DNA of 64,000 nt from assembly GCF_032854445.1 (NCBI RefSeq), contig NC_088297.1, forward strand, positions 15,057,335 through 15,121,334, in the 5' to 3' direction. Below, in pieces: positions 6,675 to 37,301 of the stretch (position 1 is the first letter of the stretch; every line of letters begins with the position of its first letter). Source of the DNA: Liolophura sinensis. Taxonomy: Eukaryota > Mollusca > Polyplacophora > Chitonida > Chitonidae. The position numbers and the translations under genes are program-made. The notes under the pieces were generated by a model. That model was not told the origin of the DNA. It was given only the letters and a program-made list of their open reading frames with translations, and ran no database searches.

Positions 6675-8198
6675 AACTCAAAAAAACGCAACCCCTGCCC
6701 TCAGATATCAAAAATTCGTTCGAATAAAGTTATTGCTTCCAAACTAAATTTTAGCCAAATGTAATGAAATTATACACGTTTTTAATGAAGATTACCATCC
6801 AAATAACTGCCTTTTCTCTCCTAAGTGTATTTTATTGCTTATGACGTCACAACGCATGGACTGACCCTGTTGACGTCGCACACAGAACCATTCACATGCA
6901 AATCATGTCAATGGCACTTATAGTGTGGGGGTGTATAAAAGCCCATGTGCTTTCGTATTTTATTCATATATTCGTCGACGAAAGGCAGTCGGTAAAATGC
7001 CGCGACTGAGTGCTGCCGACCGAAATATCGCCATTGTTCATCTTCAAGCTGGAGAAAGTTTTGGTACTATTGCACGACACCTAAATGTTCACAAAACAAC
7101 GATATCCCGACTTTGGAGCCGTTACAACAACTTTAATTCGACCAACGATCGCCCGAGAAGTGGAAGGCCAAGAATCACGATCCCACTTCAAGATCGGTAC
7201 ATCCGGGTCCTTCACCTGCGTAATCGGCATGCCCTACCAACCGTGACTGCCACACAAATACCAGGTTTGAGGAGAGTGTCGGCTCAAATGGTTAGGAACC
7301 GTCTGAAAGAAGCGGGTTTACGTGCCTGTAGACCAGTTGTTGGACCTGTACTACGCCCCTTACATCGACGCCTACGACTCAGGTGGTGCAACAACGTAAG
7401 GATATGGACTTTACAAAACTGGAGTCGCATCTGGTTTTCTGATGAACCCCGTTTTCTTTTGACACGTCACGACGGAAGACAGCGTGTGTATAGGAGACGT
7501 CATGAACGTTTTGCGCCCATCTGCGTCCGGCAGGTGGACAGATTTGGTGGAGGCAGTGTTATGGTTTGGGGAGCCATCTCGTACAACCAGAAATCAGACT
7601 TGGTGATCGTTCCAGGGAACCTGACAGCTCAACGTTACATCAACCACGTGTTACAGCCTCACCTTCTCCCGATTATTGACCGACAGACACAGATTTTTCA
7701 ACAGGACAACGCCAGGCCTCATACTGCACGTGCAACAATGAACTTTCTGCAGGATTCCAACGTCAATGTCTTGCCGTGGCCCTCTAAATCACCAGACCTC
7801 AACCCTATTGAACACCTATGGGATACTCTGGATCGACACGTGCGTCAACGTCAGCCACCGCCACAGACGCTTCAACAGCTCGCCGTTGCGTTACAGGAGG
7901 AGTGGAGGGCCATTCCCCAGGAGAGAATCCGGTGTCTTATCCGTTCTTGTCCAAGGAGATGCCGGGCAGTGATTGCAGCTCGTGGTGGTCATACGAGATA
8001 CTGAGGAAGACGCCCCCTGGTGAGCAACTGGTGTCTGTGAGATGACTTTTGAAAAGACAGTTTTAAACATGACCATCTTGATTATTATTCTGCCAAATTT
8101 CTGACTTCTGTCTTCAATAAGAAAAAAGTTGTGCCGTCCTAAAACTAAATATTAAAATCTCTTAAATACGGGGGTTGCGTTTCTTTTTTGACAGAGTT
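6675..8198 (+). mobile_element. Tc1/mariner transposon with complete transposase
   Basis: This 1.52-kb DNA transposon has a TA dinucleotide just outside each end (6673-6674 and 8199-8200), the target-site signature of the superfamily. The terminal inverted repeats share AAACT...CAAAAAA and ACGCAACCCC. The left end lacks six bases that the right end has (a CTGT block and a GA), so the ends are no longer identical. A single uninterrupted transposase frame lies between them. An intact frame suggests a fairly recent insertion or an unusually well-preserved copy; the unequal ends could reduce mobility. Confidence 0.9.
6997..8004 (+). CDS. Tc1-like transposase, 335 aa, DD34E
   Basis: Cut-and-paste transposase acting on the element's own inverted repeats in the nucleus. 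Residues 1-60 form a paired-like helix-turn-helix region (TIARHLNVHKTTISRLWSRY) followed by the GRPR-type motif RPRSGRPR. A second DNA-binding helix region follows at about 80-120. The catalytic triad is visible: D149 in WFSDEPRF, D237 in QQDNARPHTAR and E272 in LNPIEHLWD, with 34 residues between the second D and the E, the classic Tc1 spacing. The length matches intact Tc1 transposases (about 340 aa). The frame is open 72 bases upstream, but the ATG at 6997 begins MPRLSAADRN, typical of the family, and is preferred. No stop or frameshift is seen. Confidence 0.93.
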   Translation: MPRLSAADRNIAIVHLQAGESFGTIARHLNVHKTTISRLWSRYNNFNSTNDRPRSGRPRITIPLQDRYIRVLHLRNRHALPTVTATQIPGLRRVSAQMVRNRLKEAGLRACRPVVGPVLRPLHRRLRLRWCNNVRIWTLQNWSRIWFSDEPRFLLTRHDGRQRVYRRRHERFAPICVRQVDRFGGGSVMVWGAISYNQKSDLVIVPGNLTAQRYINHVLQPHLLPIIDRQTQIFQQDNARPHTARATMNFLQDSNVNVLPWPSKSPDLNPIEHLWDTLDRHVRQRQPPPQTLQQLAVALQEEWRAIPQERIRCLIRSCPRRCRAVIAARGGHTRY

Positions 8199-25869: not shown

Positions 25870-28800
25870 GATGACTCAGATGAGAAACCGGGTCCTTCCG
25901 GTAGACAGGGTTCAGGATTTGATGTGACCAAATACATTCGGTTAGTTCCATCCTTTCAGGAAAAAGAGGTGGATAAGTATTTTCTGCATTTTGAGAAAAT
26001 TGCAGATAGCTTGAAGTGGCCTAAAGAGTTCTGGACTATGTTATTACAGAGTGTGCTAATTGGAAAGGCCAGGGAAATTTACACTCAGTTAAGTGTAGAG
26101 AATGCTTCCAATTATGACTATGTGAAAGAGGTAATTTTGAAGGGTTATCAATTGGTGCCTGAAGCTTACCGCCAGAAATTTCGTAACTGTGAAAAAGGTA
26201 GAGATCAGACATACGTTGAGTTTGGTCGAGCTAAGGAGCAGTTGTTTGATTGCTGGTGTATAGCCAAGAAAATAGGCAAGGATTTTGAAAGTTTGCGTCA
26301 GCTTGTGCTGGTAGAAGAGTTCAAGCGTTGTATTCATAATGATGTAAAGGTGTTCGTTGATGAGCAGAAGGCGAGTACACTTGAAGAGGCAGCCAGTTTA
26401 GCTGATGATTATTCCTTGACACATAAGGTTACATACACGGGTAAGCCATTTAATTCATTTACACGTAGAAATACCCAGTCACATGCAACAGGTAGAGGTA
26501 GCTCTACACAGAAGAGTTCTATACCAGGCTCCAGTGGTTCTACAGCTCATGGTTCACGTAGTTCAGATTGGAATGGTAGTCCTCGAAATAGGGTCACTTG
26601 TAATTTTTGCAAGCGGGTAGGTGACGTGATGAGTGAATGTTACACGTTGAAAAGGAGACGGGAATCTCAGAATGAATCTAAGCCCACAGGTCTTTGTGTT
26701 ACAATGCACAAAACATTGCCGGAAGTTACATCAGCAGTTAAAAGCAGATCTGAGTTAGCTGATATGGGATTGGATAAGATTCCCAAATGCTCTATGAATA
26801 GCTTCGCTCCGTTTATCAATTCTGATTCAGTGTCGCTTAGAAGCGACATGTCTTGTGCTACCCCTATAAAGATATTAAGGGATACTGGGGCATCTCAGTC
26901 TCTGTTGTTGATGAATACTCTGCCCTTTTCTGAAGAGTCATACTCTGGGGTTCGTGCCCTTATTAGAGGTGTAGAGTCTAGTGACTTTGTCAGTGTTCCC
27001 CTTCATGATATTTATTTGTCATCAGATTTAATATCTGGACCTGTCAGGGTAGGCATTAAGCCTTCATTACCTTTTGAGGGTATTCATTTGTTGTTGGGAA
27101 ATGACTTGGCACATGATAAAGTTACTGTTGATCCCTTAATGGTTGATAAGCCTTCTCTGAATTCAGTCACAGAGCCAGTTGAAAGCGAGATAGCGGGTTT
27201 ATATCCGTCCTGTGTTGTTACAAGAACTATGTCTAGAAAAGTCAGTACAGACCAGGGTAGTACTGTTGATTTGAGCGAGACTTTTCTCAACAACATGTTG
27301 GATGGAGATTCTTCCAAATTAGACAGCCAGCAGGAAGTAGATACTAATTTTGTTAGTGGTGATCAGCCATTTTGTAGGACTGAGTTGATTGTTGAACAAC
27401 ACAATGATCCAAGTATTTCTTGCTTGTTTAATGATGCAGCTAAAGATGGTGAATCTTTACCTGACCCATGCTACTACTATGTCAAGTCTGGCATATTGAT
27501 GCGGCAGTGGAGGCCTCCCGATGTTTCGTTAGAGGATGAATGGGCAATTAAGCATCAGGTAGTTGTGCCCAAGTCTTATCGTAAAGACATACTGACCATA
27601 GCGCATGAAACGCCGTTAGCAGGTCATTTAGGTGTTAATAAGACCTATCATAAGATTCTCGGTCATTTTTATTGGCCAGGAATAAGGAAAGATGTTACTG
27701 AATTTTGCAGGTCTTGTCATGCATGTCAGTTAGTGGGGAAACCTAACCAGACAATCCCCAAGGCAGCCTTGAGGCCTATTCCTGCAATTGGTGAGCCATT
27801 CAGTAGAATCTTCATAGATTGTGTTGGTCCGCTACCTAAGACAAAGTCTGGAAATCAGTATATGTTAACTATAATGTGTACTTCAACTCGTTTCCCTGAG
27901 GCAATTCCACTAAGGAATATTACTGCCAAGACTGTTATTAAGGCTTTAGTTAAGTTCTTCACCATGTTTGGTCTGCCTAAGTCAGTACAGTCAGACCAGG
28001 GTTCAAATTTCATGTCTGGTGTGTTCCAACAAGTTATGCATGAGGTAGGTATTAGCCAGTATAAATCCTCAGCTTATCACTCACAAAGTCAAGGAGCACT
28101 AGAGAGATTCCATCAGACACTGAAAAGTATGATAAGAACTTACTGCTTTGAGACAGGGAAAGATTGGGACGAGGGTGTACCTTTGTTAATGTTTGCTGTA
28201 AGAGAGTCTGTACAAGAGTCACTTAGATTTAGTCCATTTGAGCTTGTGTTTGGCCATACTGTGCGTGGTCCACTACAGTTGTTCAAGGAAAAGTTTGTGT
28301 CTGGTGATAGTGACAATGTTAACCTATTACAGTATGTGTCAAGTTTTCGTACTAAGCTCAACAGAGTATGTGAGTTAGCCAGAGAGAATCTTACAGCTTC
28401 TCAGAAGAGTATGAAAACTAAGTATGACAAAGACACAGTAAGACGCAGATTTGAAGTTGGTCAGAAGGTATTGGCCTTACTTCCAGTTAGTGGTAAGCCA
28501 CTTGAAGCTCGTTATTTTGGACCTTATGTAGTAGACAAGAGGCTAAGTGATCTTAATTATATTATTTTCACTCCTGATCGGCGCAAATCTAGACAACTTT
28601 GTCACATTAACATGTTAAAGCCATATGTAGACAAAGATAGCACTGATCTCAATGTTGTACATCCTAGTGGAGTTGTTACCTCTAACTTAGGCCCTGATTC
28701 AGCTGTTAGGGATGATCAAGATTTTGACTTAAGGTTCCGGTCAGCCAAACTCCAGAATTCAAGTATTTTTGAGGACATTGATTCTGTGTTGGGTCATCTG

Positions 28801-30174
28801 GAATATCAGCAACGCCAGCAGTTGAAGGATTTGGTTCGTCGATATGAACATTTGTTCCCTGATGTTCCAACCAGGACTGAATCCATCTACCATGATGTTG
28901 AAGTTGGAGACTCCAAGCCGATTAAACAGCACCCATACAGACTGAACCCAACTAAAACTGAATACTTGAGAAAAGAAGTTCAGTATTTACTAGAAAATGA
29001 TCTGGTCGAGCCCAGTAACAGTAACTGGAGTTCACCTTGTATTCTTGTGCCAAAACCAGATGGGACTTACCGCATGTGTACAGACTATCGCAAAGTGAAT
29101 GCCGTCACTAAAGCAGACAACTTTCCCATTCCAAGGATTGACGACTGTATCGATGCCGTGGGAAAGTCCAACGTTGTCTCCAAGTTTGACCTATTGAAAG
29201 GATTTTGGCAAGTACCGCTCACGCAGCGCGCTCGTGAGGTGTCAGCGTTTGCTACCTCAGATGGTTTATACCAGTACAAAGTCATGCCCTTTGGGATGAA
29301 GAACAGCCCTGCCACCTTTCAACGACTTGTGAACAACGTTACATTAGGCCTTAAAGGGTGTCGTGTTTACATCGGCGATGTAATTATATTCAGCGACACT
29401 TGGGAGGAACATTTAAATATCATGGAGGCATTATTTGCGAGACTGTCCCAAGCCAATCTTACAGTAAATTTGGCCAAGTGTGAGTTTGGTTGTGCTTTTG
29501 TCACATATCTAGGGCATGTTGTCGGACAGGGTCAGGTAAAACCTGTTAATTCTAAAATCAGTGCTATCTCTTGTTTTCCAGTGCCAAGTTGTAAGAGAGA
29601 ATTAAAGCGTTTTTTGGGCATGGCAGGTTATTATCGTAAGTTCTGTAGGAACTTTTCATTTGTTAGTGAGCCACTAACTCAGCTGTTAAAGAAAGGTGCT
29701 AAATTCTTGTGGTCCATTGACTGTCAGAAATCTTTTGATAGATTAAAGGCCATGCTAAGCTGCGGCCCCATACTTGTAGCACCTGATTTTAATTTACCAT
29801 TTAAGCTAGCTGTTGATGCTAGTGATATATCTGCTGGGGCAGTTTTGTTACAAGAAAATGAAACAGATCACGTTGATCACCCTGTATGTTTTTTCTCTCG
29901 CAAATTTGACAAGTGCCAGAGAAATTATTCGACAATAGAAAAGGAGTGTCTGTCCTTGATTCTAGCATTACAGCATTTTGAAGTATATGTGACTTCGTCA
30001 AGTTACCCCATTGTTGTGTATACAGATCACAATCCCTTGACCTTCTTGCACAAACTAAAAGGTAAAAACCGAAGATTGTTACGGTGGTGTTTGCTTTTGC
30101 AAGAATTTAATCTAGAGATTAGACACATAAAAGGGAAAGATAATGTGATTGCTGATTGTTTGTCACGTGTCTAG
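25870..30174 (+). pseudogene. Gmr1-like gag-pol polyprotein, open but catalytically altered
   Basis: Numbering counts from the GTG at 25924; about 18 in-frame codons precede it and the true gag start is missing. A gag matrix/capsid-like part begins KYIRLVPSFQEKEVDKYF. A zinc knuckle spans C226-C239, with D234 where the family has histidine. The protease motif is DTGAS (320-324). Integrase follows: zinc-binding H561, H568, C598 and C601, then D632, D691 and E727 (35 residues between the last two) and a GPY module near 862-900. Reverse transcriptase comes next: motif A FDLLKGFWQVPL has D1089, but the polymerase box reads YIGD (1149-1152) instead of YxDD. RNase H runs from about 1295 to the end. 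The frame has no stop or frameshift, so the missing aspartate should make the polymerase inactive although most of the frame is preserved. Confidence 0.88.
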
Positions 30175-30848
30175 TTGGTTTTCTGCAGCTTTGTTTTTAT
30201 AGACTGTGGTAAACGTTATTATTATTCATAATTATGAATATGTTAAAGAAAGTTTTATGCAAAACTTTCTTTCCCTGAAGGGTGGGGGTGTTATGTATGA
30301 CTATTTAACGTTTTCATGTACTGTTAGTCTGCGGACCTTTGTGAAAGCATAACAGGCCCTGTTATATATGTACAGCGCGGACCTGGTGGAAAGCACCTTG
30401 TTCAAGACTTCGTTTATTTCACTGGCTGTTCATTGGCTGTTAATTCTGTGTTTAAAAATAGTTGAATCCACCTGGGACGTATATAAGCCGTGTTTTCTGT
30501 GCAGAGGGGAGGTATTTTTGCTGCATCCACTGGGAGCCAGGAGAGTGTGCGACGCTCTCGTATCGAGTCCATTACATTTATATGAGCTGGTGATGCCAGT
30601 TTCGTTTGGGAGGACAGATTTTTATGCCGGCACCGTTTGTGTACCACAGTAGTACTGATGTCTGGTTTATGTGAGTTTCTGCGGAAGTCACATTTATTGG
30701 TGTTCGGATCTTTATTGTGATTATACAGTGTTGACTGTGTAATTTGTTTAACACGCTGACCTCACCTGACCGACAAGGTCGTCAAGGACTCTAAACTGAA
30801 GTTTTCAGTTTTGCAAAGGACGTTCGTTCTGCCACAAGGTGACATTAC

Positions 30849-30909
30849 TCTACGTCTCTGAACGGCTCGTTTGTGAGCTTCTGCGGGAGCTGTGACTGTT
30901 CTAAAGTGG
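30849..30909 (+). repeat. Left copy of 61-bp target-site duplication
   Basis: Begins TCTACGTCTCTGAACGG and ends GTTCTAAAGTGG. It is identical over 61 bases to 36855-36915. Both copies belong to the split LTR and bound the LINE insertion. Confidence 0.95.
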
Positions 30910-31365
30910 ATGTGGGGGGGGGGGGGGAGGGGGTTGATTTGCACTGGCGCTTTTCCGGCCCAAAGGGCCGATGCGCGCCAAAACTTGGCGTCATTGAAAA
31001 TGCTTTTAAGCTGGATAGTATATAAAGGAAGAGTATATTATTTAGGACAAGAAGAAGAAGTTTCAATACTAGTGCTATGGACATTGTAGCATTATAGCCG
31101 ACGAATTTTGGGCTTGATGACTAACAGAAGAAAAAAAAGTGTTTGCAGAGGGTCATTATTCACTATGATGACCGTTTCTTAATGTAGTTATACAATCCAT
31201 ATTTACAGTACAAGATGGGCAGGTACATGGATTAAAGAGAGATTTTGGGAAAGGTGGGCGTTAGAACACTCAAGATGTTATAACATATACGGGACACAGA
31301 GTATAGTACAGGAAGAGCTGAACAGTATACATACACAATACCTGGACAAAAAAACAGTAGAAGCA

Positions 31366-34300
31366 TCAGCTCATATCAGTTCTGTTCGGGTAAAAAAACG
31401 ACAACAACCACTTTAAAAGCAACAGATAGGCCGATCCAACCATGTTAACATTAAAAAAATTGGCCAGGGCCTGGAAAGTCTTATTTCGGTTCGCTTTAGG
31501 ATTTAAAACAGATGCTAACGTAAAATGCCGAAGGCCAATGGAGCGTAAGTCCCGGTAAAGAACACGGCGAGCGTTAGAGTGCTGGAGTAAATAAGAGATG
31601 AGCGATATCATCGTTAACTAGGCATATGTCACATAACCCAGATGGGTGCAGATTCATTCTGAATAAATAGGTATTTGTAGGTACATGTCCAGAAATAAGG
31701 CGGAAAACTAGCGTTTCATCTCGTCGGGAACGTAATGATATTGGCGAATTTAACAAGACAGAACGATTATACTCGTGAAAAAACCTCCCCTTATTAGCTT
31801 CATCCCACTGCCGCTGCCAAATATCCACAAACTTAGGTGCGACATGACTCATAATTTCATTAATGTTTAAGGGCACGTGTATGGATATATCTAAAAAGGA
31901 TAAAGCTCTCTTCGCCAGGGAGTCTGCCATTTCGTTCCCCACAATACCGACATGAGCTGGTACCCAGTCAAAACTCACAGCGACGCCCTGGTAACGAAGA
32001 GTGGTGCATAAATGTAGTATTTCAAACACAAGTGATGAAGAATTATACCGGACATAATTTGACATGGCCTGCAAGGAAGATAAAGAATCGGTAAGTATAA
32101 CAGCCCTGGAAGGTTTTAGGTCGAGGAGAAACTGAAGAGCACAGATGATAGCTGTAAGTTCTGCTGTAAATACTGAGACAAAATTGGATAATCTAAAGGA
32201 TTTGGAATATTTTAACTCTGGAACACAAAAAGCTGCACCAACTCTGTTGCTGTTTGGACACTTGGAGGCATCAGTGTATACCTGCAAGTACTAGGATAGG
32301 CTTGTATGTATATGTTCCGTAGCACATAGTAAGGAAACATTCGGATTATCAGATTTTTTTATATCATCGTTCAGAGTAGTCGAAATATAGGGAGGTTCTA
32401 GATTCCATGTGGGGAAATCAGGAACACGGGATGACTGCAAAGCAACATTATCACAATCTAAAGACGAAGATATGTTCTTTGATCTCAAACTAAATGGTAA
32501 CCCAGCATAACTATTTAAGTCATGCAAGTTGTCATAAAAGGAAGGTTCGAGCAAACGAGACGAAGCATTATTAACCGAACATTTGAGCCTGAAAAGGAAC
32601 TTGAGGGTGCGCAGGCGCCGACGGATAGACAATGGCCACTCGTTACAGAATACCTGTAGAACGTTAAGTGGTGTGGTGCGCATGCCTCCTGTACATATCC
32701 GCAGCGCTGCGCACTGAACAGAATCTAATTTTTCTTTAAGCGTAATGCAAGCAGAATCATAGGCTTCACAACAATAATCAAGTTTGGTACGGATGAGAGA
32801 GCGATATAGCAGTAGTAATGATTTTTTCTCAGCCCCCCAAGATTTGCCCGATACACACCTCATTAAATTTAGAACTTTATCACATCTTGCTATCAAATAG
32901 TCAATATGTCTACCCCAAGTAAGCCTATTATCGAATATAACCCCGAGATACTTAAAAGAAGAGGAGATTTTGATCGTCGAGTTATTAAGGGCTAGACAAA
33001 CATTACCAGTATGGCGCCGTGTAAACACAACAGCTTCTGTTTTAACAGAAGAAAACTTAAACCCCCAGTCCCGGCTCCATTTCATTATATCATCTAGACC
33101 TTGCTGAATATGCTTGACACAAGAGGCAAGGGACCTAGAACAAAACCACATGGATTTATCATCAGCGAAAAGCGTGCAATTTAATTTAGGGGATATGGCA
33201 TTGGGTAAGTCATTTATGGCTACATTAAATAAAGTGGGAGATAAGACACTTCCCTGGGGAACCCCATTCTCCACCGGAACCATGCGAGAATAACTCTGTC
33301 CCACTCGAACTTTAATAAAACGTCCGGACAGGAAATCTTTTAAAAAAACCAACATTTTCCCACCAATGCCAATATTACGCAGCTTAATTAACACCCCAGT
33401 CCTCCAAACCGTATCGTACGCTTTTTCTATATCGAGAAACACGGCAAGTAGATAATCATTATATTTAAAAGAGTGTCTGATGGAGGTTTCTAAATTAACC
33501 ACATGGTCAGTAGTACAACGTTTGTTTCTAAAACCGCTCTGTACTGGACTAAGTATATTGTGTTCTCCAAAAACCACATCAATCTAGAATTTATCATACG
33601 CTCCATGACCTTGCAGAGACAGGACGTGAGGGCTATAGGCCTGTACGAAGATGTGAACGAGGGATCCTTACCTGGTTTAGCAACGGGCACAACAATTGCC
33701 GTTTTCCATTTAGCAGGGAGTTTCATACTAGACCAAACGGCATTGTGGAGCAATAGTAATATAGTCATACAGTGATATGGCAAATTGTACAACATGGAGT
33801 ACGTAATAGTATCCTCACCCGGTGACGAATCCGAACATGAGGATAAGGCCTGCTTTAATTCTAGTAAAGAAAAATCATTGTTAATTGGCATGTCATCAAA
33901 AAGAATATTATTAAAAGGATGCATTTCTTCAATATTTTCCTTATGGGATATATACTCAGGAGAATAATTGTTTGAACTGGAAACGAAAGAGAAACTGTCT
34001 GCCAAAATATTGGCTTTGTCAATATTAGTAACATAATTACTATTATTATGAACAATAGTTGGGGTGTTATTTGATTTTCTTTTACCTTTAATCGAGTTTA
34101 TTTTATTCCAGACTTCTTTGGTATTTGTATTTTCAGATAAATTCGAACAGTATTGTCACCAGTGATCTCTCTGAGCTGTTTTAATCACCCGCTGTGCTAC
34201 AGCTTTAGCTCGTTTAAATAAAACAATGTCTTGGTATAGGCGAGTGCGTTTTGCACGATTTTTTAAACGTTTCCGATTTTTTATAGCATTAGAACAATCG

Positions 34301-35221
34301 TCGTTCCACCAAGGAACAGGTATTTTACTAGACACCTTACCTGAGGATTTTGGAATGCATTTTTGTGCAGCCACATCAATGGCATTAAGTACATTATCTG
34401 CAAAAATATCAAAATCATTATTATACACATCCTGAGAAAAAGACCTCAAACATTCTTCTTTGTATACATCCCAGTTTGCCCTTTTCACACACCATCTGGG
34501 AGGCTGGCCTACAGGATTCACATGGTGGTCTATATTACAGGTGACTAGAACTGGTAAGTGGTCGCTAGGACAACGGCTTATGGTATCAACGAACCAATTA
34601 AAAGACAGACCTATATCTGCTGAGCAAAGAGTAAGGTCTAAGTGAGACAGATTACCAGAATGAGGATCTACACGAGTGCCCGTCCCATCATTTAAAACAC
34701 ACATTTCATAATCATTAACTAGAGCAGTCATTACCCTTCCATTGAAATTCGTTGTAATGCTACCCCATAAGGGTCCGTAAGCGTTAAAATCCCCACACAA
34801 TATATAAGTGCTATTAATATAAGACATAAGAGTATCAAAATCTTTTCTATCAATACGACTAGAAGGATTGTATATATTAACAACACTTGTGGGTGCACCA
34901 GACCTCGTAGCAATATTAAAACATTGTGCCTCAATACTGTTTTAAGGGAGGTAACTTTAGTTCTGAAAAGGATAAGCCGTCTTTTAGAAGCATGGCCAGG
35001 CCCCCTCTCCCGTCTGTATTCCTATCCATTCTACCTATAAAATACCCAGGGTAAGTAAAATCCATATGTGGCTTTAAAAAAGTTTCTTGAAGACATATAA
35101 CATGAGGAGCGGGCTTAAGATTTTGAATATAACACTTGAATTCCTCTCCATGAGCGCCAAGACCGCAAATATTCTGATGTAACATCAGATAAAAAAGGCA
35201 TTGATAAAAAAGGTAAAACAA
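31366..35221 (-). pseudogene. LINE ORF2: endonuclease, reverse transcriptase, RNase H (broken)
   Basis: It starts 36 bases after ORF1. The endonuclease shows LQETFL, GDFNAYGPLWGS and SDHLPVLV, holding the expected E, D/N and D/H residues. Reverse transcriptase shows SSYRPIALTSCLCKVMERM, LDIEKAYDTVWR, NGVPQGSVLSP and the catalytic FADD, followed by KYLGVIFD. RNase H shows YTDASK, ELTAIICALQ and LTDSLSSLQA, then VPAHVGIVGNEMADSLAK. Breaks: a frameshift near 34945 in the endonuclease, an in-frame TGA at 34156-34158 between endonuclease and polymerase, a frameshift near 33570, a TAG at 32291-32293 between polymerase and RNase H, and a probable frameshift near 31590 before the C-terminus. Catalytic residues survive, so decay is recent. 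Confidence 0.88.
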
Positions 35222-35257
35222 GATAGGAATATATATTTATATTATATAAAGGATACA

Positions 35258-36481
35258 TTATGAATGTTCATCATCCGAGGACACAGTAAATAGAATATTG
35301 TTCAGTCTTTTAAAATCAACAGCCTCAGAGCCAAGACGACTCTGAGCGATGCTAAACACTACTTGTACCAAACTCTTAGGGTCTTCGATTTCGAAGACTT
35401 TTATTAGTATTTCCGAAAAGATGGCGATAAGCCTTGTGGCCATTGTGAAAGACATATCGTCTGTCTGAGTGGGTTCACCACGTGGGGTTTGAGTAGCTAT
35501 GGACCTAAGGATTGGCTTGACGGGTGTAATCGTAATAGAATGGGGCTGTTCAGGGGGGGTATCTATTACCGGCCCTTCTGTTAGAGCTCGCTCATTTGAC
35601 CCCGCTGGGTAAATTCTATGGGGGTTATCTTCTTCACGTACTGATTTTAAAGCATCAGCAAAAGAAATTTTCTTGGTAACCTTTATGAACTGCGCTTTAC
35701 ATACCTGCTTTCTATATGGGCAACCCATATACGCCGAGCTATGGCTCAGGGACCCGCAGTTGACACATTTGGGACGATCCAGGTTGTGGCATTCATCAAA
35801 TGTATGGGGGCCGCCACATCTTGGGCATCGCTGGCGCCCCCTACATTCCCCTGAAATATGCCCAAAGGACTGACATTTGAAGCAACGTATGGCGGGTGGA
35901 ACATATTGCTTGACAGGAAATATTTCGTAACCGAGAGAAACTTCTTCCAGTAGTGCATCCGAATTAAAATATAACAACATACATTTGGTTTTAGTTTTTT
36001 CCTTCCCTTTAGTCAGACGCTGTGCTTTCGTTACTTTGTATTTTTTCAGTGCTTGTTGTACTTCTTCTTCAGTGATGTCTTCTCCTAACCCATAAATCAC
36101 CCCACGTGAAAGGGTGATATTGGAGTGCAGCCTGCAGGAGACATCTCTTCCCATCAGCGTTGTTATGCTGAGTGCCTTTTTGACTTGAGTGGCACTATTA
36201 CAAACAATCATTAGGTCTTTACCGTTAATTTTCTTTACTTGTTTTACATTGCCAATTGCTTGTTGTAAACTCTGACCAAATTTAATTGGGTTCCACCCAG
36301 TGACGGGTAAGCCCCCCATAGATGAAATTACAACATTGTTATTGTTATTTCCCTGCTTCTGACCCACCTGCTTTGCTTTCTTCCCTTCCTGGGAGCTTCT
36401 ATCTGTTGAAAAATCGCGCGTTCGTTTTGTAGTGGATCGCGTTTCCACGACTTCCATGTCGTCTCCTTCTGCGTCATCCAT
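35258..36481 (-). CDS. LINE ORF1 protein, 407 aa, three CCHC zinc knuckles
   Basis: RNA-binding nucleocapsid-like protein of the LINE, needed in related elements for ribonucleoprotein formation. The frame is complete from ATG (MDDAEGDDMEVVETR) to stop. Residues about 60-190 form a domain seen in ORF1 proteins of this group (LMIVCNSATQVKKAL, GVIYGLGEDITEEE). Three knuckles follow at 200-254: CFKCQSFGHISGEC (CX2CX4HX4C), CPRCGGPHTFDEC (CX2CX3HX4C) and CVNCGSLSHSSAYMGC (CX2CX4HX6C). The N-terminus is acidic then basic, and the C-terminus has a proline/threonine stretch. Unlike ORF2 it shows no lesions. It is part of a dead element, so retained expression is uncertain. Confidence 0.87.
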   Translation of the reverse strand: MDDAEGDDMEVVETRSTTKRTRDFSTDRSSQEGKKAKQVGQKQGNNNNNVVISSMGGLPVTGWNPIKFGQSLQQAIGNVKQVKKINGKDLMIVCNSATQVKKALSITTLMGRDVSCRLHSNITLSRGVIYGLGEDITEEEVQQALKKYKVTKAQRLTKGKEKTKTKCMLLYFNSDALLEEVSLGYEIFPVKQYVPPAIRCFKCQSFGHISGECRGRQRCPRCGGPHTFDECHNLDRPKCVNCGSLSHSSAYMGCPYRKQVCKAQFIKVTKKISFADALKSVREEDNPHRIYPAGSNERALTEGPVIDTPPEQPHSITITPVKPILRSIATQTPRGEPTQTDDMSFTMATRLIAIFSEILIKVFEIEDPKSLVQVVFSIAQSRLGSEAVDFKRLNNILFTVSSDDEHS

Positions 36482-36796
36482 GGCTGTAACTAATGACTAT
36501 AGTGGTGTATGCACAGGGGAGTTATTACAAGACGACAGTTAAAAATAGCAGAAGTTGCTCGGGAGCTGCTCCGAGCCAGGGAGAAAAGACGAAAGGCGCT
36601 CTGTTAGGTGTGGAAGAGACAGTGTAAGTACAGTAAATTGTTGTCAAAAAGCCCAATACTAAGCAACAAACGTGTATTATTAATTTAGAATTTACAAGAC
36701 CGAAAGCTATCACAAATAAATCCAAAAAATATCAAATATACAACACTATGAAAACCACTCTCAATGAACGCCTGTACAAGAAAGGGGGTTAAGTTG

Positions 36797-36854
36797 ACCT
36801 TTGCCTCCTTTACCGCGTCCAGACATATCTATACCTTCTATCGAGCTGAGTAAG
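36797..36854 (-). pseudogene. Histone H4 leader and first ten codons, fused to LINE 5' end
   Basis: Read on the minus strand, an ATG at 36826-36824 opens MSGRGKGGKG (to 36797), identical to the first ten residues of histone H4. It is preceded by 28 bases that would be an H4 5' leader. At the next codon the similarity stops and LINE 5' UTR sequence begins. The segment lies inside the 61-bp target duplication, so it arrived with the LINE. The order (H4 5' end, then LINE, same sense) is what reverse-transcriptase template switching from LINE RNA to H4 mRNA would give. The fragment cannot make histone. Confidence 0.85.
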
Positions 36855-36915
36855 TCTACGTCTCTGAACGGCTCGTTTGTGAGCTTCTGCGGGAGCTGTG
36901 ACTGTTCTAAAGTGG
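36855..36915 (+). repeat. Right copy of 61-bp target-site duplication
   Basis: Identical to 30849-30909; the LTR continues directly with TTTATACCTCCATGCC. Confidence 0.95.
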
Positions 36916-37301
36916 TTTATACCTCCATGCCTGTATTTACCCTGTGTTGTGCTCTGCGGGTGTGACGGCATTCAAAGGCTTGACTGTTCCAGTTCTGTGT
37001 AACCTGTGTACTGTGTTCGCGTTCGCTAACCTAGCGAAGTACCTGACTAGGACAATTTGTGACTTGTGTGAATTGTGTGTTTATCCCATGGTCTTGGATC
37101 TCCTGGAACACGTTCCTTGGGATGCAAAGGTGAACTGGAAACTTTTAAAGGCCGGTAATACTGATGTGTATGTTTTTTTATGTTGTTGTTGTTGAACTGT
37201 CTGTAAAACTGTACGTCTCATTTTATATATAAAGCCATTGTTTACATTGTAATATTGGGTCACTGAGTCTGTTTTCTGTTGCTGTTTTCAATACCGTAAC
37301 A

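Follow-up and report, generated by a model that had tools for sequence, protein, structure and literature searches.

The LINE and its H4 segment

The DNA analysed here (the window; 64,000 nt of contig C3 in the 609-Mb genome of the mollusc Liolophura sinensis) includes a long terminal repeat (LTR) of a Gypsy-type element, and in this LTR lies a long interspersed nuclear element (LINE, or non-LTR retrotransposon) whose 5' end is the start of a histone H4 gene. The LINE reads on the minus strand and is flanked by two copies of its target site, 61 bp long and 100% identical; this duplication sets its bounds, and its contents were read from the list of open reading frames (ORFs) and from Pfam matches. 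The parts of the locus, in window coordinates, are as follows (UTR, untranslated region; RT, reverse transcriptase).

30289..37301, plus strand: LTR of the Gypsy-type element that hosts the LINE; 1007 bp without the LINE, TGTTATG...CGTAACA
30849..30909, unstranded: target-site duplication on the 3' side of the LINE, a 61-bp perfect repeat
30910..36854, minus strand: LINE insertion, with its 5' end at 36854 and its poly-C 3' tail at 30910
31574..34941, minus strand: ORF2 region in pieces, with APE endonuclease, RT and RNase H (Pfam Exo_endo_phos_2, RVT_1, RNase_H)
35258..36481, minus strand: ORF1, from the ORF list
36482..36795, minus strand: the LINE's own 5' UTR, starting AACTTAACCCCC, from the alignment of copies
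36761..36826, minus strand: upstream reading frame of 21 residues opened by the H4 ATG, from translation
36796..36826, minus strand: H4 coding start, 31 nt, ending GGCAAAGGTC, from the match to host H4 genes
36827..36854, minus strand: H4 5' leader, 28 nt, lacking the 5' part present in full copies, which start ATATTTCTAC
36855..36915, unstranded: target-site duplication on the 5' side of the LINE, a 61-bp perfect repeat

The ATG at 36826 opens MSGRGKGGKG, the start of H4, after which Q stands in place of L; the frame reads MSGRGKGGKGQLNPLSCTGVH and then stops, upstream of ORF1. Bases 1-59 of the LINE (36854-36796) are 98.3% identical over 59 nt to the H4 genes in L034 and L035, and on sequence grounds chance is excluded as the source of this match. 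An earlier note on the window, made from its letters alone, had read the ten H4 residues, had suggested that the 28 bases before them were the leader of the gene, and had placed both inside the duplicated target, joined in the same sense to the LINE with which they arrived; all of these readings have been borne out. The outer end that it gave for the segment (36854) also stands, but the inner end (36797) does not, the H4 part reaching one base further, to 36796.

When the copies are aligned, a poly-T and AT-rich stretch present in the 5' UTR of others is absent from the window copy. An intron was considered for the stretch missing after LINE base 220; its ends (a poly-T start and an AAATC end) are not splice sites, and it is therefore treated as a deletion. 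Pfam matches to Exo_endo_phos_2, RVT_1 and RNase_H, together with the 61-bp duplication, identify the element as a LINE, and the copy is broken, since the APE endonuclease, RT and RNase H of ORF2 are spread over several frames. The ORF1 region (35258-36484) has no Pfam match at E 0.001. APE, RT and RNase H together are the domain set of the I group in the available part of PMC4640811, and the window LINE has this set, on which its putative I/Nimb label is based; Nimb and Ingi appear as I-superfamily clades across molluscs in the accessible part of PMC10294476. A protein search for the clade returned 604 relatives with the clade named in none, the nearest protein being 61% identical.

H4 leaders across the LINE family

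A search of the genome with the H4 protein gave 13 matches, of which 11 are full-length at 100% (nine on C7, two on C4); the remaining two are a match that covers 92 residues at 80% and a mere fragment. The leader ATATTTCTACTTGCTCAGCTCGATAGAAGGTATAGAT is identical in eight of the C7 genes, and the ninth C7 gene and the C4 pair have variants of it. In the C7 genes TATATAA starts 31 nt before ATATTTC, and in the C4 genes the TATA lies 30 nt before the matching point. Given that full leaders in the LINE copies begin about 31 nt below the position of the H4 TATA, the outer boundary of the LINE would coincide with the expected H4 cap site, a position inferred from the TATA distance.

Copies of the LINE were found by a pattern from its 5' UTR with up to three mismatches, which matched 24 places including the window and gave 0 matches when reversed. 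The earlier note had proposed a search for other copies with the H4 start, as a means of telling an inherited join from a one-off one; an H4 start is present in 22 of the 24. Of the others, L048 keeps only about 12 nt of it and L047 none. The inner boundary GGCAAAGGTC is common to all 22, bar one base change in L062. Scored over the last 48 nt, the leaders are of C7 type in 12 copies at 48/48, five at 47/48 and L062 at 46/48, and of C4 type in L046 (48/48), L063 (46/48) and L059 (45/48); in L045 a piece of core promoter replaces most of the leader. The likeness to the host genes can be complete, as in copy L010, whose bases 12-80 agree with the C7 H4 genes at all 69 positions (100%; E 6e-30, small database). 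A leader-only match on C8, at 85%, is not among the 24 copies.

Leaders have passed between paralogues. The leader of L046 matches the C4 H4 genes at 48/48 and the C7 genes at 39/49, and its LINE body is identical at 1506 of 1512 positions to that of L051, a copy with a C7 leader. Hence, as the sequences stand, leaders have changed at least once with the boundary kept. L059 and L063, whose leaders are C4-like, have older bodies (about 95-97% identical to others) and group with the C7-like L062 with a support of 100; leaders were probably exchanged more than once, the boundary remaining unchanged. In addition, L045 holds H4 sequence from about -36 to +4, then skips to just before the ATG, and its 5' flank is LTR. 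Promoter DNA has therefore got into a retrotransposed copy, which is not obtainable by a switch onto mRNA.

LINE sequence at H4 promoters and at an LTR site

With a 231-nt H4 promoter-leader query, 37 matches were found in the genome, and all 36 first-look candidates were scored. Two H4 promoters on C7 have no gene behind them and run into LINE fragments, at +6 and at -10. At the first (C7:23287-23288 kb), the H4 promoter extends to +6 and is followed by some 1 kb of a LINE that lacks its 5' part and has poly-C, by H4 from -7 through GGTC, and then by the 5' start of another LINE (L059). The 13 bases GCTCAGCATATTT flank the first LINE on both sides, as in a normal duplication; reconstructed accordingly, the locus before the first LINE entered is an H4 promoter, its leader and a LINE. 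At the second (C7:23238 kb), the H4 promoter extends to -10 and is followed by LINE at 98.4%, a LINE 3' end lying 2.4 kb further on, at C7:23236111. Furthermore, at L036, pieces of a LINE relative (66-79% identical) end in a C-rich stretch that is followed directly by the leader and ATG of an H4 pseudogene with a stop at codon 6. Fewer than 0.0001 meetings of LINE and H4 promoter are expected by chance, on an estimate from 13 H4 promoters of some 60 bp and about 60 LINE 3' ends, these being pattern matches, five of which fall in the same 1.1 kb of C9 and are doubtful as LINE ends. L064, in which the 3' end of LINE B was sought, contains no LINE sequence. In the C4 histone array (L037), LINE pieces at 94-96% lie between histone genes in the same sense; because both of their ends are lost, they are uninformative on the insertion site.

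Most other readable copies lie in the LTR. At LTR bases 49-57, LINEs are inserted antisense in nine of 11 readable 3' flanks (from 13 full copies, two of which have no 3' end in the sequence taken) and in 11 of 24 5' flanks; independent copies thus share one site, as in a target-specific element. The exact LINE-LTR junction pattern has 46 matches in the genome, at no fewer than 14 separate places, and the pattern of the LTR site has 313 with up to three mismatches. Duplications of 9-14 bp are present at L009, L010, L013, L016 and L020, and no clean adjacent one at L011, L015, L017 and L018. In the window LTR this favoured site (about 30337-30345) is empty, the window copy being elsewhere in the LTR, and L020 sits at the LTR's own TATA, in sense. 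L019, L040 and L052 are tandem or nested, with the 3' end of another LINE and its poly-C just upstream of the LINE start.

Two stretches of the LTR resemble histone promoters.

30362..30396, minus strand: H4-promoter-like stretch on the opposite strand of the LTR, GTGCTTTC-NN-CCAGGTCCG-N9-TATATAA, 26/35 ungapped
30453..30488, plus strand: H2A-promoter-like stretch on the LTR's own strand, TAAAAATAG..GAATCC..TATAWAAGC, resembling the C7 H2A gene

The 26/35 of the first compares with 21 at most when 2844 other window segments of 120 nt are scored. The insertion point lies 51 nt from GTGCTTTC in the LTR, and in the H4 gene this distance is 52 nt. The local alignment of LTR and H4 promoter scores 29, a score that was attained among 5000 dinucleotide shuffles 0 times for one LTR copy and once for another, and the promoter of the L038 gene scores 30 against the whole LTR, versus shuffle maxima of 25 and 29. 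In the eight LTR-site copies with a full leader, the distance from TATA to leader start is 29, 31, 32, 32, 35, 36, 46 and 48 nt, compared with 30-31 in H4 genes. As a post hoc remark, the 8-mer CAAAGGTC at the H4 join is also present at the LTR site. For the second stretch, the alignment of the LTR with the C7 H2A promoter scores 37, versus shuffle maxima of 24-29, and is the best of 1276 window segments; the C4 H2A promoter is not above shuffles against the LTR (26 versus 27 and 35), nor are the H2B and C4 H4 promoters. Next in likeness to the H2A promoter among window segments, with a score of 28, are those at 36400-36700, in the 5' region of the LINE.

Origin of the H4 leader

We consider it probable that this LINE inserts at the start sites of H4 genes, uses H4 promoters and carries a co-transcribed leader, much as R2 does. 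An APE-type LINE would enter the region where H4 transcription starts, in the sense orientation, and so come under the H4 promoter; its RNA would start at the H4 cap site, the H4 leader and the first 31 coding bases making up the 5' end; and the leader cDNA would pair with the leader of the H4 gene being entered, the new copy taking that gene's leader. Such a cycle would explain the fixed boundary, the outer end at the cap site and the fact that leaders match more than one paralogue. It may have begun with an insertion after GGCAAAGGTC. Most of the readable insertions lie outside H4 genes, at the LTR site with its H4-like promoter layout on the opposite strand, and targeting could be by DNA sequence or by promoter-bound proteins.

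Several observations weigh against this mechanism. Repeated insertion into H4 genes is represented by LINE fragments at two H4 promoters and by a degenerate relative beside a pseudogene, with 0/11 full-length genes occupied. Searches with the H4 protein and the 231-nt promoter-leader did not recover the H4 parts that would lie beyond either C7 insertion, and no H4 gene was found in which a LINE follows codon 10 and is followed by the remainder of the gene. The LINEs at the two H4 promoters have lost their 5' ends and hence have no leaders of their own. Only 11 of the 24 5' flanks adjoin the LTR site, several copies being elsewhere, and in the tree the nodes around L046 have low support values, 26 and 7. 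The H4-like stretch of the LTR was tested after being noticed, and the alignment over the whole LTR scores 29, where the best shuffle reached 26 in one run and 35 in another, the latter not being exceeded.

An unlikely alternative, though the strongest of those considered, is a single ancestral capture, by a jump of the RT onto the 5' end of H4 mRNA or by a LINE landing in an H4 gene, after which the leader has served as a normal 5' UTR or internal promoter and its variants have arisen by gene conversion. Such an event would account for the one boundary that recurs in 22 copies, for the 48-nt C7 leader shared by 12 of them and for the many copies away from H4 genes. However, it does not sit well with the C4-type leader of L046 on a body nearly identical to that of a C7-leader copy, with the LINE fragments at two H4 promoters, or with the core-promoter DNA in L045, which a plain mRNA switch cannot supply. 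We regard it as improbable that the LTR is the real target, H4 promoters being struck only through their likeness to it and the leader gained in accidental hits: the 5' end of the family carries an H4 leader and not LTR sequence, and the degenerate relative also adjoins an H4 pseudogene, against which stand at least 14 LINE 3' ends at the LTR site versus two at H4 promoters, and 313 matches to the LTR site pattern versus 11 intact H4 genes. Finally, the one-off template switch from LINE RNA onto H4 mRNA that the earlier note had proposed for the window copy, which fits the order and sense of the parts and the position inside the duplication, is refuted by 21 further copies with an H4 start at the same boundary and retains next to no probability.

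LINEs also make chimeric retrogenes, with U6, 5S and other partners, in which the 5' end of a host RNA is joined to LINE sequence. The H4-LINE join has this likeness to them, but those are one-off joins with many boundaries, unlike the one boundary in 22 copies and the exchangeable leaders observed here.

A co-transcribed leader has its closest counterpart in R2. According to the available part of PMC6895275, R2Bm RNA is co-transcribed with its target, and its processed form retains at the 5' end 27 nt of target RNA from upstream, whose need for full-length insertion was noted; the cDNA presumably pairs with target sequence on the upstream side, and strand invasion has been proposed. Target-derived RNA at the 5' end would be common to both systems, co-transcription being described for R2 in that part of the source and proposed here for the LINE. 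The present LINE is nevertheless not an R2 element: R2 has a restriction-like endonuclease and a 28S rRNA target, whereas this LINE has an APE-type endonuclease, occupies LTR and H4 sites, the latter in a protein-coding histone gene, and retains sequence from the expected cap site. TRE5-A, a LINE of Dictyostelium that targets tRNA genes, inserts at a fixed distance from the promoter, with stray sites that have promoter motifs only (PMC5391098, in the part available). These stray sites resemble the LTR site described above, but TRE5-A acts at RNA polymerase III (Pol III) promoters rather than at histone-type promoters of RNA polymerase II (Pol II), and carries no host leader as far as it is described there.

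Among APE LINEs, members of the R1 and Tx1 clades, Keno in U2 genes for example, prefer sites in multicopy genes or transposons, and the known target-specific LINEs use RNA genes, simple repeats, telomeres and other transposons, in the available parts of PMC4640811 and PMC5035012; the word histone is absent from those parts of both texts on target-specific LINEs. No H4-targeting LINE was found in the literature searched, which comprised open-licence texts, mostly at listing level.

More broadly, and as a tentative view to which we give somewhat less than even weight, the LINE may target the Pol II starts of H4 genes and of H4-like LTR promoters, each copy landing under an S-phase promoter and renewing its 5' end from the H4 gene entered, and so be a self-renewing element that has no promoter of its own and is linked to the histone programme. 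If the mechanism is true, the LINE would be to Pol II and protein-coding genes what R2 is to rDNA, with a replication-dependent histone promoter and expression tied to S phase; it would offer natural evidence, readable in sequence, that 5' junctions form when a co-transcribed leader pairs with the target, and a way for a LINE to live without an internal promoter. With its H2A-like and H4-like stretches, the LTR may belong, together with the LINE, to a pair of unrelated elements that share a histone promoter code.

Elsewhere in the window, an open frame of 1434 residues at 25870-30174 on the plus strand encodes the polyprotein of the Gypsy-type element to which the LTR belongs, with the integrase before the RT and a SCAN-like match, an order which we take to resemble that of Gmr1. 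At 6874-8004, also on the plus strand, there is an open frame of 376 residues for a Tc1/mariner-type transposase, with HTH and DDE_3 matches.
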